Shown piece by piece: positions 27,361 through 30,652 of a stretch of DNA of 38,326 nt. Under the pieces are notes generated by a model. It worked only from the letters and a program-made list of their open reading frames with translations, ran no database searches and had not been told where the DNA came from. How positions within the stretch are numbered: the first letter of the stretch is position 1; each line of letters opens with the position of its first letter. Made by a program: the position numbers and the translations under genes. The stretch is taken from NCBI GenBank assembly GCA_026418195.1, contig JAOABU010000041.1, forward strand, positions 1 through 38,326. The letters run 5' to 3'. The DNA comes from Spirochaetota bacterium. GTDB taxonomy: Bacteria > Spirochaetota > Spirochaetia > DTKZ01.

Positions 27361-27840
27361 ATGAAGGTGGTGATCCCCGGCTCGTTCGACCCTCCAACCA
27401 ATGGACATTTGAACCTGATCATGCGAGCTGCGCAGATATGGGATGAAATTGACGTAGTAATTGCTGAAAATCCCTCTAAGAAGTATACGTTTACCGCGAA
27501 GGAACGCAAACAAATGATGGAAACCTTGCTGAAGGAGTATCCCAACATCAAGGTAGCCATTTGGGATAAGCTGATCGTTGACTACGCTCAACAAACAGGA
27601 GCCCGCATTCTCATACGAGGGGTTCGAGCTCTAGCAGACTTTACCTACGAGTTCGAATTGTCCATGGTGAACAAAGGTCTAAATCCTTCCATCGAAACCA
27701 TTTTCATGCCTACCGATCCCAAGTATTTCGTTCTCCGTTCCAGTGCAATCAAAGAAATCGCGGCTTTCGGAGGAGACATTTCAACCATGGTTCCTCCTTT
27801 AGTGGCGGATGCATTGTACCGGAAGGTTAGGGGTTCTTGA
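27361..27840 (+). CDS. coaD: Phosphopantetheine adenylyltransferase CoaD
   Basis: 159 residues, the typical length. The nucleotidyltransferase signature GSFDPPTNGHLNLI includes T13 and H16 of the TxxH motif. Also visible are AENPSKKYTF, ILIRGVRALADFTYEFELS and YFVLRSSAIKEIA. The enzyme makes dephospho-CoA from 4'-phosphopantetheine and ATP in the cytoplasm. No Shine-Dalgarno precedes the ATG. The next gene, rpmF, follows after 61 bp, and then acpP, which needs the CoA-derived prosthetic group. Confidence 0.97.
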   Translation: MKVVIPGSFDPPTNGHLNLIMRAAQIWDEIDVVIAENPSKKYTFTAKERKQMMETLLKEYPNIKVAIWDKLIVDYAQQTGARILIRGVRALADFTYEFELSMVNKGLNPSIETIFMPTDPKYFVLRSSAIKEIAAFGGDISTMVPPLVADALYRKVRGS

Positions 27841-27901
27841 CATTCCCCTTGGCATAGATTATTTTGTTGTCCATTATTCAGTTAAGGGAAGAGGTTCATA
27901 C

Positions 27902-28090
27902 ATGGCAGTACCTAAATATAAACCATCTAAAGCAAGAACGAGACGCAGACACTCCATCAACCGAAAGCTGGAAACCCCTCTCCTTTCGGTATGCTCCAAC
28001 TGCGGAAATAAAGTGTTGCCCCATCGAGTCTGTGGAAAGTGCGGCTTTTACAATGGGAAACAGGTCTTAGAACCTGAAGATATGGCATAG
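27902..28090 (+). CDS. rpmF: Ribosomal protein bL32
   Basis: 62 residues from ATG 27902, with AAGAGG upstream. It begins MAVPKYKPSKARTRRRHSIN and has two CxxC pairs (CSNCGN and CGKCGF) that bind zinc, so this is the zinc-binding form of L32. In many bacteria rpmF sits next to fatty-acid genes; here acpP follows after 23 bp, without plsX or fabH between. Confidence 0.95.
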   Translation: MAVPKYKPSKARTRRRHSINRKLETPLLSVCSNCGNKVLPHRVCGKCGFYNGKQVLEPEDMA

Positions 28091-28113: not shown

Positions 28114-28350
28114 ATGGACGAACTGTTCGAAAAAATGAAGAAAATTATCGCCGATAAGTTAGAGATCGATGAAAGTAAGATCACTTTGGATTCTTCCTTT
28201 CGTCAGGATCTAGGCGCCGATAGTTTGGATACCTATGAACTCGTATACGCCATAGAGGAAGAAATGGGCATTAGTATTCCCGATGAAAAGGCGAACGAGT
28301 TCGAAACGGTTCGGGATGCTCTGGAATACATCAAATCTCAAAAGAAGTAG
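28114..28350 (+). CDS. acpP: Acyl carrier protein
   Basis: 78 residues, acidic and helical. The phosphopantetheine attachment site is Ser37 in DLGADSLDTYELVYAIEE. GGGAGGTAA precedes the ATG. The protein carries acyl chains in fatty acid and lipid synthesis. It is followed 8 bp later by rnc, an adjacency found in several bacteria. Confidence 0.97.
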   Translation: MDELFEKMKKIIADKLEIDESKITLDSSFRQDLGADSLDTYELVYAIEEEMGISIPDEKANEFETVRDALEYIKSQKK

Positions 28351-28358
28351 TTGTTTGT

Positions 28359-29132
28359 GTGTTATTCAGGAAGACAGCAGATACTAGCACTAGGAAGGCG
28401 CCTCCGGTAACAGCAGAACGAAAAAAAGAACTATCCGTATTTCAGAAAGGTGCAGGAATAAGGTTCAGGAGTCTAGAGCTCCTGAACCTTGCTTTTTGTC
28501 ATCGATCTTATGCGAATGAACAATCCGTAGACATTGCAAACAACGAACGGTTAGAGTTCCTAGGGGATGCTGTATTGGGATTAATCGTCAGTGAATACCT
28601 GGTTGAACATCTTCCAGATCGGCAGGAAGGAATTTTAGCAAAGATCAAATCCTTTGTAGTGAGCGAAGAAAGTCTATCTACCATTGCAAAACGGTTGAAA
28701 GTCGATAATTTCATCCTAATTGGTCGAGGAGAGGAATACTCGGGGGGCCGAACCAAGAAGGCTATTTTAGCCGATGCGCTAGAAGCCATCATTGGTGCTT
28801 ATTTCATCGATTCTGGGTTGTCGGATTGTAAGAAATTTGTACTCAGCTTCATGGTGCCGGAAATTCAGAAAGTGATCGAAAACCGACATAGGAAAGATTA
28901 CAAAACATTGCTCCAAGAATACGTTCAGAAACGATTCAAAACCTATCCGAAGTATTTTCTAGTAAAAAAAACAGGCCCAGATCACGACAAGACGTTTTGG
29001 ATCGAGGTAAAGATTCTCGATAAGACCTATGGGCCTGGTCAAGGAAAGAATAAGAAAGAAGCTGAGCAGGATGCTGCCAGCATCGCATACAACGAGCTAG
29101 TTCCACAGGAAGAACAGGAACCTGTGTCTTAA
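28359..29132 (+). CDS. rnc: Ribonuclease III
   Basis: 257 residues. The start is GTG 28359, 8 bp after acpP, without a clear ribosome binding site. An N-terminal extension of about 25 residues precedes the nuclease domain. The signature NERLEFLGDAVLG gives the metal-binding residues E63, E66 and D70, and the second acidic patch is in ADALEAIIGAYF. The double-stranded RNA-binding domain occupies about 175-250 (DYKTLLQEYVQKRFKTYPKY). The enzyme processes rRNA precursors and some mRNAs. A perfect 12-bp hairpin lies inside codons 34-44. Confidence 0.96.
   Translation: MLFRKTADTSTRKAPPVTAERKKELSVFQKGAGIRFRSLELLNLAFCHRSYANEQSVDIANNERLEFLGDAVLGLIVSEYLVEHLPDRQEGILAKIKSFVVSEESLSTIAKRLKVDNFILIGRGEEYSGGRTKKAILADALEAIIGAYFIDSGLSDCKKFVLSFMVPEIQKVIENRHRKDYKTLLQEYVQKRFKTYPKYFLVKKTGPDHDKTFWIEVKILDKTYGPGQGKNKKEAEQDAASIAYNELVPQEEQEPVS
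28460..28497 (+). promoter_or_regulatory. Perfect 12-bp hairpin with a U-run inside the rnc coding sequence
   Basis: AAGGTTCAGGAG (28460-28471) and CTCCTGAACCTT (28479-28490) are exact inverted repeats around a 7-nt loop TCTAGAG; a U-G pair could extend the stem by one. GC and five T follow (28491-28497), giving the shape of an intrinsic terminator or attenuator. It may also be an RNase III target in its own mRNA. The codons also encode the conserved LLNLAFCHRS part of the enzyme. Confidence 0.7.
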
Positions 29133-29151
29133 TCCCCTTCTTTTGGAAGGT

Positions 29152-30513
29152 TCAGATTTTCAGTCGTTCTTGATAAAAATTTTTCGCCAATTTTAAGAGT
29201 GTTTCTTTCTCATTCATAGAAGGATCTTCTAGTACCGATTCTAAGAGGAACTGGAGGACGGTCCCCATAGCAGGACCGGTTGGGATACCGACCTCGGACA
29301 GGTCGTTCCCATTTACTGCAAGTTCTTTTAAGGAAAGGGGGGCAGATTGGGCAAGAACGGAGGCAATCCGTTCTCGAAACCGGGTCAACGTTCTGGGATC
29401 TTGACGTTTTCCAGCGGTAGCCCATCCATCGGCTTCTCGTAATGTGAACAGATCTTCCAAATGTTCTTTCCCTACCTTTCGTACGAACCGACGCACCGCT
29501 GCATCAGTCCAGGAATCCTCGTAATGAAACATATGGTGCAGAATTAGATGTGTCACCCGTTTTTCAAAGGCTACAGGGAATCGAAAGCGTCGTAGAATGT
29601 TGCTTGCCAACTGTGCAGAGGTTTGTTCATGACGGTGAAATACAATATCTCCTTCTGGAGTCATTGTCTTCACGATAGGCTTTCCAATGTCATGAAGGAG
29701 GGCAGCCCAACGAACTGTGGGGTTGTGTTTAGGGGCCGCGTCACAACAGAGGATGGAATGGGTGAACACATCAAAGGCATGAGATCCCTTCTGTTCTACC
29801 CCACGGCAAACCTCTAATTCTGGAAAAAGGATGGGAAGGATTCCGGTTTCCGTCATCAGATTGAACCCGATGGAGGGAGTTTCACTGGCCATGATCTTTT
29901 CCATCTCGTCCCGAAGTCGTTCAAACGATACGTTGCTTAGGGTAGGGGCAAGGACTCTCATGGCCTGCTTGGTTTGTTCCTCGATGGTAAACCGAAGTTG
30001 GACGCTAAAGCGCACTGCCCGAAGGATCCGTAGCGCATCCTCTTGGAAGCGCTCTTTCGGATCTCCCAGAGCACGAATAAGGCACCTCTTTACATCCTCT
30101 TGACCTCCATAGGGATCAATGAGGAGTTTTTCCCTGGGTTCGATGGCCATTGCATTGATGGTAAAATCCCTGCGCTTCAGATCTTCCTGTAAATCTCGGG
30201 TATAGTGTACATGATCTGGATGTCTGGCATCAGAATACGGGCCTTCGATGCGAAACGTAGTAGTTTCGAACTTTTGGCCTTTGTAGAGGATCGTTACCGT
30301 ACCATGTTTAATTCCCGTCGGGATCACTGTTTTAAAGAGGGGGAAGAGCTCTTCTGGAGTCGCATCGGTAGCTAGATCCCAATCTGTAGGGTTCTTATTG
30401 AGAAGAATGCTTCGGACCGCTCCTCCGACTACGTAGCACTGGTATCCCGCTTGCACGATTCGAGTATGCACTTCCAGTAGTTCTTTAGGAAAAGGATAAC
30501 GGATGCGCTCCAT
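29152..30513 (-). CDS. cca: CCA-adding enzyme / poly(A) polymerase-type nucleotidyltransferase with HD domain
   Basis: 453 residues from the ATG at 30513; ATGs at 30522 and 30549 are in frame, but the first overlaps a good -10 and the second its -35. The nucleotidyltransferase head has YVVGGAVRSILLNKNPTDWD with catalytic D44 and D46, then RRDFTINAMAI and the ALRILRAVRF helix. An HD domain in the C-terminal half reads WAALLHDIGKP, with HRHEQTSAQLA following. It repairs or adds CCA to tRNA 3' ends, and the tRNA-Val of this window lacks an encoded CCA. It converges on rnc with 19 bp between the stops. Confidence 0.93.
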   Translation of the reverse strand: MERIRYPFPKELLEVHTRIVQAGYQCYVVGGAVRSILLNKNPTDWDLATDATPEELFPLFKTVIPTGIKHGTVTILYKGQKFETTTFRIEGPYSDARHPDHVHYTRDLQEDLKRRDFTINAMAIEPREKLLIDPYGGQEDVKRCLIRALGDPKERFQEDALRILRAVRFSVQLRFTIEEQTKQAMRVLAPTLSNVSFERLRDEMEKIMASETPSIGFNLMTETGILPILFPELEVCRGVEQKGSHAFDVFTHSILCCDAAPKHNPTVRWAALLHDIGKPIVKTMTPEGDIVFHRHEQTSAQLASNILRRFRFPVAFEKRVTHLILHHMFHYEDSWTDAAVRRFVRKVGKEHLEDLFTLREADGWATAGKRQDPRTLTRFRERIASVLAQSAPLSLKELAVNGNDLSEVGIPTGPAMGTVLQFLLESVLEDPSMNEKETLLKLAKNFYQERLKI

Positions 30514-30605: not shown

Positions 30606-30652
30606 AAAAAAAAAAAAAGAAAAAAGAGGGTGTCCCTACAGACACCCTCTTT
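30606..30652 (-). terminator. Rho-independent terminator of flaB
   Basis: Read on the minus strand, AAAGAGGGTGTC pairs with GACACCCTCTTT (30623-30634 with 30641-30652), a perfect 12-bp stem with a 6-nt loop, followed by a T-run interrupted once by C (13 T at 30606-30618). It lies 22 bp after the flaB stop codon. Confidence 0.96.

Follow-up and report, generated by a model that had tools for sequence, protein, structure and literature searches.

A hairpin followed by a U-rich tract near the beginning of the rnc gene of a spirochaete seems to be, with a probability of about three in four, an intrinsic (Rho-independent) and probably leaky terminator of the rpmF-acpP message, located inside the coding sequence of the next gene. 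At the level of comparison between homologous loci, the hairpin itself, its conservation, the compensation within its stem, the selection on the U-tract, the strand polarity, the replacement of the site and the dependence on acpP are established; from these we infer that transcription terminates at the hairpin, that termination is leaky and that translation may be linked to it. Terminators are usually sought between genes, and the form of a coding sequence is attributed to the protein. In the present case, a terminator-like signal in the gene of a conserved enzyme appears to dictate synonymous codons as well as some paired amino acids.

The hairpin and its genetic setting

The window, which is the whole stretch of 38,326 nucleotides analysed, contains the consecutive genes coaD, rpmF, acpP and rnc (Table 1). 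The acpP stop and the rnc start are separated by 8 nt, a spacing that leaves no room for a terminator between the two genes. The promoter-like site upstream of rpmF is a candidate for the start of the rpmF-acpP(-rnc) transcript; matches to this consensus number 8 in the region, against 5.5 expected by chance.

Table 1. Positions in the window of the proposed terminator and of the surrounding features
Feature	Position	Strand	Basis or remark
Promoter-like TTGACA-17-TATTTT	27837..27865	+	upstream of rpmF; consensus match alone
rpmF (ribosomal protein L32)	27902..28090	+	Pfam; upstream, same gene run
acpP (acyl carrier protein)	28114..28350	+	Pfam; message proposed to end at the hairpin
rnc (RNase III) ORF	28359..29132	+	Pfam Ribonuclease_3 and dsrm; GTG start assumed
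Terminator-like hairpin within the rnc ORF	28459..28491	+	inverted-repeat scan, predicted fold, homologue conservation
U-tract (T GC TTTTT)	28490..28497	+	third base of Leu44, Ala45, Phe46

The 12-bp stem is perfect, its 5' arm AAGGTTCAGGAG (28460-28471) and its 3' arm CTCCTGAACCTT (28479-28490) being exact inverted repeats separated by the 7-nt spacer TCTAGAG. The 5' arm begins 101 nt past the GTG start of rnc, and the stem is followed by GC (28491-28492) and TTTTT (28493-28497), so that the sequence-only reading, which had described a perfect 12-bp hairpin with GC and five U about 100 nt into rnc, was exact. The predicted fold lengthens the stem to 13-14 pairs by a U-G pair at the outer end and one pair at the inner end. 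The hairpin spans codons 34-45 of rnc and, together with the U-tract, reaches codon 46; except for position 28490, the U-tract lies outside the 12-bp stem. AAGGTTCAG, found at 29147-29155, about 15 nt past the rnc stop, repeats bases 1-9 of the 5' arm and might base-pair with the 3' arm.

The 33-nt element folds with -21.3 kcal/mol (z = -6.3), a value equalled by 0 of 200 shuffles, and the 71-nt segment around it gives z = -5.85. Perfect 12-bp short-loop inverted repeats occur twice in the window, the rnc hairpin being one of them, and its pattern is present as a single copy in the whole 3.1-Mb genome. The hairpin had no match above the gathering score in a scan of the window with Rfam 15, in which the sole match was a tRNA. 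The other perfect repeat belongs to a textbook terminator directly past the flagellin gene (30623-30652, - strand), with a 12-bp stem and then TTTTCTTTTTTTT; it scores highest among the terminator-like hairpins of the window.

The rnc element has the features of an intrinsic terminator, namely a stable G+C-containing hairpin with a short loop (12-14 bp stem) and, on the sense strand, a U-rich tract. The strength of this tract is modest because GC separates the stem from the main T-run. With an approximate d'Aubenton-Carafa-style score, the hairpin obtains +17.6 and the flagellin terminator 66; the same formula gives a positive value in 91 of the 114 codon-35 loci.

Conservation of the stem and constraint on codons

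All of the 30 rnc genes nearest by protein (62-97% identity), which were picked regardless of the hairpin, carry it at identical codons and with identical spacing. In the alignment of these genes, 97% of the stem cells are paired and 26 both-side stem changes are observed, against 8.4 in shuffles; the pairing signal is lost once the arms are slid in the alignment. The compensatory changes for which the sequence-only reading had proposed to look in relatives are therefore present, and its opinion that such a structure is unlikely to have arisen by chance is borne out by these changes, by the occurrence of the hairpin in 30 of 30 genes and by the z value of about -6.

An exact-pattern scan over 84,980 genomes gave at least 80 matches listed, among which at least 62 are situated at rnc codon 35, all in spirochaete-named records; the other 18 of these listed matches come from other bacteria, at loci without rnc. 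A covariance-model search over the phylum retained 38 of 393 genomes under strict filters, a figure that is not an estimate of prevalence. In an RNase III tree built without the hairpin codons, many branches of which are weakly supported, the codon-35 site is distributed across most of the class and is replaced in several lineages. Overall, the codon-35 hairpin seems to have been kept across some 20 spirochaete families; the cultured species Breznakiella homolactica is one of its carriers.

These searches yielded several minor observations. One record named Borreliella garinii, from a cave metagenome (L081), carries the codon-35 hairpin and has an rnc gene like that of L051 and unlike the Borrelia-type; its name is probably wrong. 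Four Pseudonocardia loci (L069, L085, L097 and L118) contain repeated palindromes AGGTTCAGGAA...TTCCTGAACCT with GTGGC/GCCAC-containing spacers, outside rnc. At locus L006 (G053), the first search gave an rnc match that crosses a single TAG close to its end.

The covariation of the hairpin extends into the amino-acid choices of RNase III. In 91 of 96 loci, residues 38/41 are S-L, R-L or K-F, and at codons 37/42 most loci combine either AGR with CTG or AAR with TTG. In the full-stem loci, G-U pairs outnumber A-C mismatches by 53 to 21, which points to the coding-strand RNA as the paired molecule.

The figures for recoding and codon bias were obtained from the 107 full-stem loci. Synonymous recoding of codons 33-48 left on average 7.1 of the 11 pairs, and all 11 were found in 1.8% of recodings. 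The seven most synonymously constrained rnc codons (35, 44, 43, 45, 36, 38 and 41) all belong to the hairpin or its tail, a ranking that is partly circular for loci picked by the stem pattern, since most of the top codons are stem codons. Codon 45 lies outside the stem, yet it is among the top-constrained codons.

The U-tract is under selection beyond the stem as well. Ala45 is encoded by GCT in 83% of cases, against 17% at other Ala codons of the same genes; Ser45 is TCT in 91% (13% elsewhere in the gene) and Leu44 is CTT in 87% (29%). Third-base T is found at codons 44 and 45 in 87% and 87% of the 107 loci, against 27% and 22% expected, and the 10-nt tail contains 6.06 T, against 4.25 expected, with values above expectation in 105 of the loci. 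The set chosen by protein similarity, taken alone, gives 80, 77 and 97% third-base T at codons 44, 45 and 46 (27, 20 and 54% expected). At hairpin-free loci, third-base T reaches 42% and 35% at codons 44 and 45 (29% and 27% expected), and the bias at Ala45 is little (GCT 31% vs 24%). Four loci (L046, L049, L095 and L058) have a poor U-tract though the stem, or most of it, is present.

Replacement of the site and dependence on acpP

We surveyed 173 Spirochaetia junctions, all chosen with acpP directly upstream of rnc and enriched for the codon-35 site, for hairpins with a stem of 8 or more, no fewer than 4 G-C pairs and a loop of 3-24. Such a hairpin, with 5 or more T among the 10 nt that follow, was detected on the sense strand at 127 of the 173 junctions and on the antisense strand at 21 of 173; of 516 windows taken as controls from the rnc body, 3 contained one. 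By class, with counts that are approximate as some rows were reassigned by eye, the junctions comprise 118 with the codon-35 hairpin, 15 with a second embedded site, 2 with a third site, 4 with other early-ORF hairpins, 17 intergenic, 1 leader and 5 weak cases, and 11 with none.

The second ORF-embedded site corresponds to K-A-P...R-E-L codons and has the form AAAGCTCCC-N20-GGGAGCTTT with a T-rich tail; it occurs in families f9 and f12. The loci carrying it (L053, L060, L061, L179-L183, L191, L194, L207, L216, L224, L225 and L234) are all without the codon-35 hairpin, and only 1 codon-35 locus also bears the second site. The third embedded site (2 loci) lies at LAAFQKAAGF. Treponema-type loci (f25) have an intergenic hairpin instead of the codon-35 one, and in Leptospira-type loci, where acpP precedes rnc, many junctions contain ordinary intergenic terminators. 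The median distance from the acpP stop to codon 35 is about 104 nt at junctions with an embedded hairpin and 166 nt at those with an intergenic one (p = 6e-11, kinship ignored, as in the other statistics of this comparison). Where a lineage lacks the codon-35 hairpin, the stretch from acpP to codon 35 usually contains a different terminator-like hairpin, and the terminator site thus appears to relocate between lineages, to a second place in rnc or to the intergenic gap where this is longer.

The sequence-only reading had named relatives with the same protein stretch and no base pairing as evidence that would speak against it. Such relatives exist in several families: Treponema-type, Borrelia-type and others, these types being judged by grouping, share the RNase III motif without the pairing. 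Most of them have a junction hairpin elsewhere, but the Borrelia-type loci do not; no hairpin was detected in them by the survey criteria, and they are among the 11 of 173 junctions with none.

At 27 loci without acpP upstream of rnc (15 Brachyspira-type and others), which are distant relatives and make an imperfectly controlled comparison, a hairpin in the 5' part of rnc was found only in L231; L281 has one 208 nt upstream of codon 35. Position after the terminated gene and dependence on it are expected of a terminator, and these 27 loci are nearly all hairpin-free. An RNase III cleavage site would be expected to stay with rnc whatever lies upstream, and at these loci the element does not.

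Proposed function, rival explanations and known systems

Transcription of rpmF-acpP would end about 140 nt past the acpP stop, at codons 34-46 of rnc, the terminator being located inside rnc because acpP and rnc are packed too tightly to fit one between them. Most polymerases would halt at the hairpin, giving an abundant short acpP mRNA, and the fraction reading through would supply rnc mRNA, with the level of RNase III held much lower than that of acyl carrier protein. A ribosome translating rnc close behind the polymerase should block hairpin formation, so that the termination ratio may also depend on rnc translation. A regulated form of this attenuator, in which the trailing ribosome or stem-bound RNase III would set termination against read-through and thereby make the RNase III level depend on the activity of the enzyme or on the translation of rnc, is a tentative extension that we consider rather unlikely; in it, the constraint would also have shaped residues 38/41 (S/R-L vs K-F) over the history of the class. 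If termination is confirmed, it would explain the very different expression of the tightly packed acpP and rnc genes, provide a clean system to study competition between polymerase, ribosome and terminator inside an ORF, and call for caution in attributing synonymous or amino-acid constraint in such genes to protein selection alone.

Two interpretations had been offered by the sequence-only reading. Comparison gives strong support to an attenuator that sets acpP expression apart from that of rnc, in view of the selection on the U-tract, the substitute terminators at the junction and the near absence of the hairpin without acpP, and self-cleavage by RNase III is disfavoured. In the latter case, the enzyme would bind and cut the hairpin in its own message, resulting in decay and negative feedback. 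The host gene is indeed rnc, the pairing of the stem is conserved, and RNase III of Staphylococcus aureus was shown to cleave its own coding sequence (PMC3386247), as was that of Streptomyces according to work cited in the same paper. However, self-cleavage predicts neither the synonymous selection of T outside the stem, nor the lack of the hairpin at loci without upstream acpP, nor its exchange for T-tailed intergenic hairpins upstream of rnc. The S. aureus element, too, is a hairpin that lies within the coding part of rnc and is conserved in one group of bacteria, but its helix is long, irregular and placed elsewhere (U+296), whereas the spirochaete stem is short and perfect, has a selected U-tract and goes with acpP adjacency. 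Self-cleavage as the main role is thus improbable in view of the selected U-tract, the replacement of the site and the dependence on acpP; RNase III may cut at the hairpin in addition to termination. It is quite improbable that the hairpin serves 3' processing or stabilization, with read-through RNA cut downstream and trimmed to the stem, the acpP mRNA protected and its 3' end made by RNases. Stability stem-loops setting operon stoichiometry are known (PMC8219983), and acpP adjacency and a strong stem would likewise be predicted, but by itself such processing predicts neither the T-tract at codons 44-46 nor the sense-strand polarity of T.

A palindrome acting at the DNA level, for example as a site in rnc bound by a transcription regulator, could account for the inner core AGGTTCA/TGAACCT, which is nearly invariant in hairpin-bearing loci. 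This possibility is very improbable: both-side substitutions occur elsewhere in the stem, G-U prevails over A-C, the T-tract is strand-specific and the substitute sites differ in sequence, and a regulator palindrome was rejected on the single copy in the genome. Finally, a conserved RNase III segment (xxRFxxxxLLNLAFxHRS) is encoded here, and the hairpin might be a by-product of protein or codon constraint, devoid of function in RNA. Such a coincidence is scarcely credible, as it is contradicted by hairpin-free relatives sharing the protein motif, by the rarity with which synonymous recoding yields the hairpin and by a synonymous constraint that peaks exactly there.

Leaky terminators inside operons are known from several systems. 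In ABC importer operons of cellulolytic Clostridia, internal intrinsic terminators of this kind set stoichiometry (PMC9045158); as in the terminator proposed here, a hairpin with a U-rich tract lies between highly and lowly expressed genes and partial read-through is proposed, but those terminators are intergenic, whereas the rnc hairpin occupies the downstream ORF, limits the choice of codons there, is found in many families and shifts its site. In Methanococcus maripaludis, internal operon termination lowers the expression of downstream genes and sets ratios (PMC10450193), by an archaeal mechanism and at intergenic sites, unlike the ORF-embedded rnc hairpin. RNA 3' ends inside ORFs, some with a structure like that of intrinsic terminators, were reported for Escherichia coli (PMC7815308) and Borrelia burgdorferi (PMC10319736). 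They were mapped on RNA, each in a single species; the texts of these two papers contain no rnc or acpP case that we could find, and Borrelia-type loci are without the codon-35 hairpin. In the open-access literature searched, we found no account of a terminator maintained within rnc. Leaky internal terminators are thus known, and one that is embedded in the downstream ORF, spread over about 20 families and shifting its site appears to be new.

Many of the 47 acpP-rnc junctions from Clostridia have an intergenic terminator and few an embedded hairpin (L323, L376, L388 and L391); most loci with tightly packed acpP and rnc genes have no embedded hairpin. This rarity indicates that there is no general need or rule for one. 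At L323 (2128-2160, - strand), a locus of the Clostridia class in which acpP and rnc overlap in TAATG, a 13-bp hairpin with a poor U-tract occupies the same place in rnc and probably represents an independent case.
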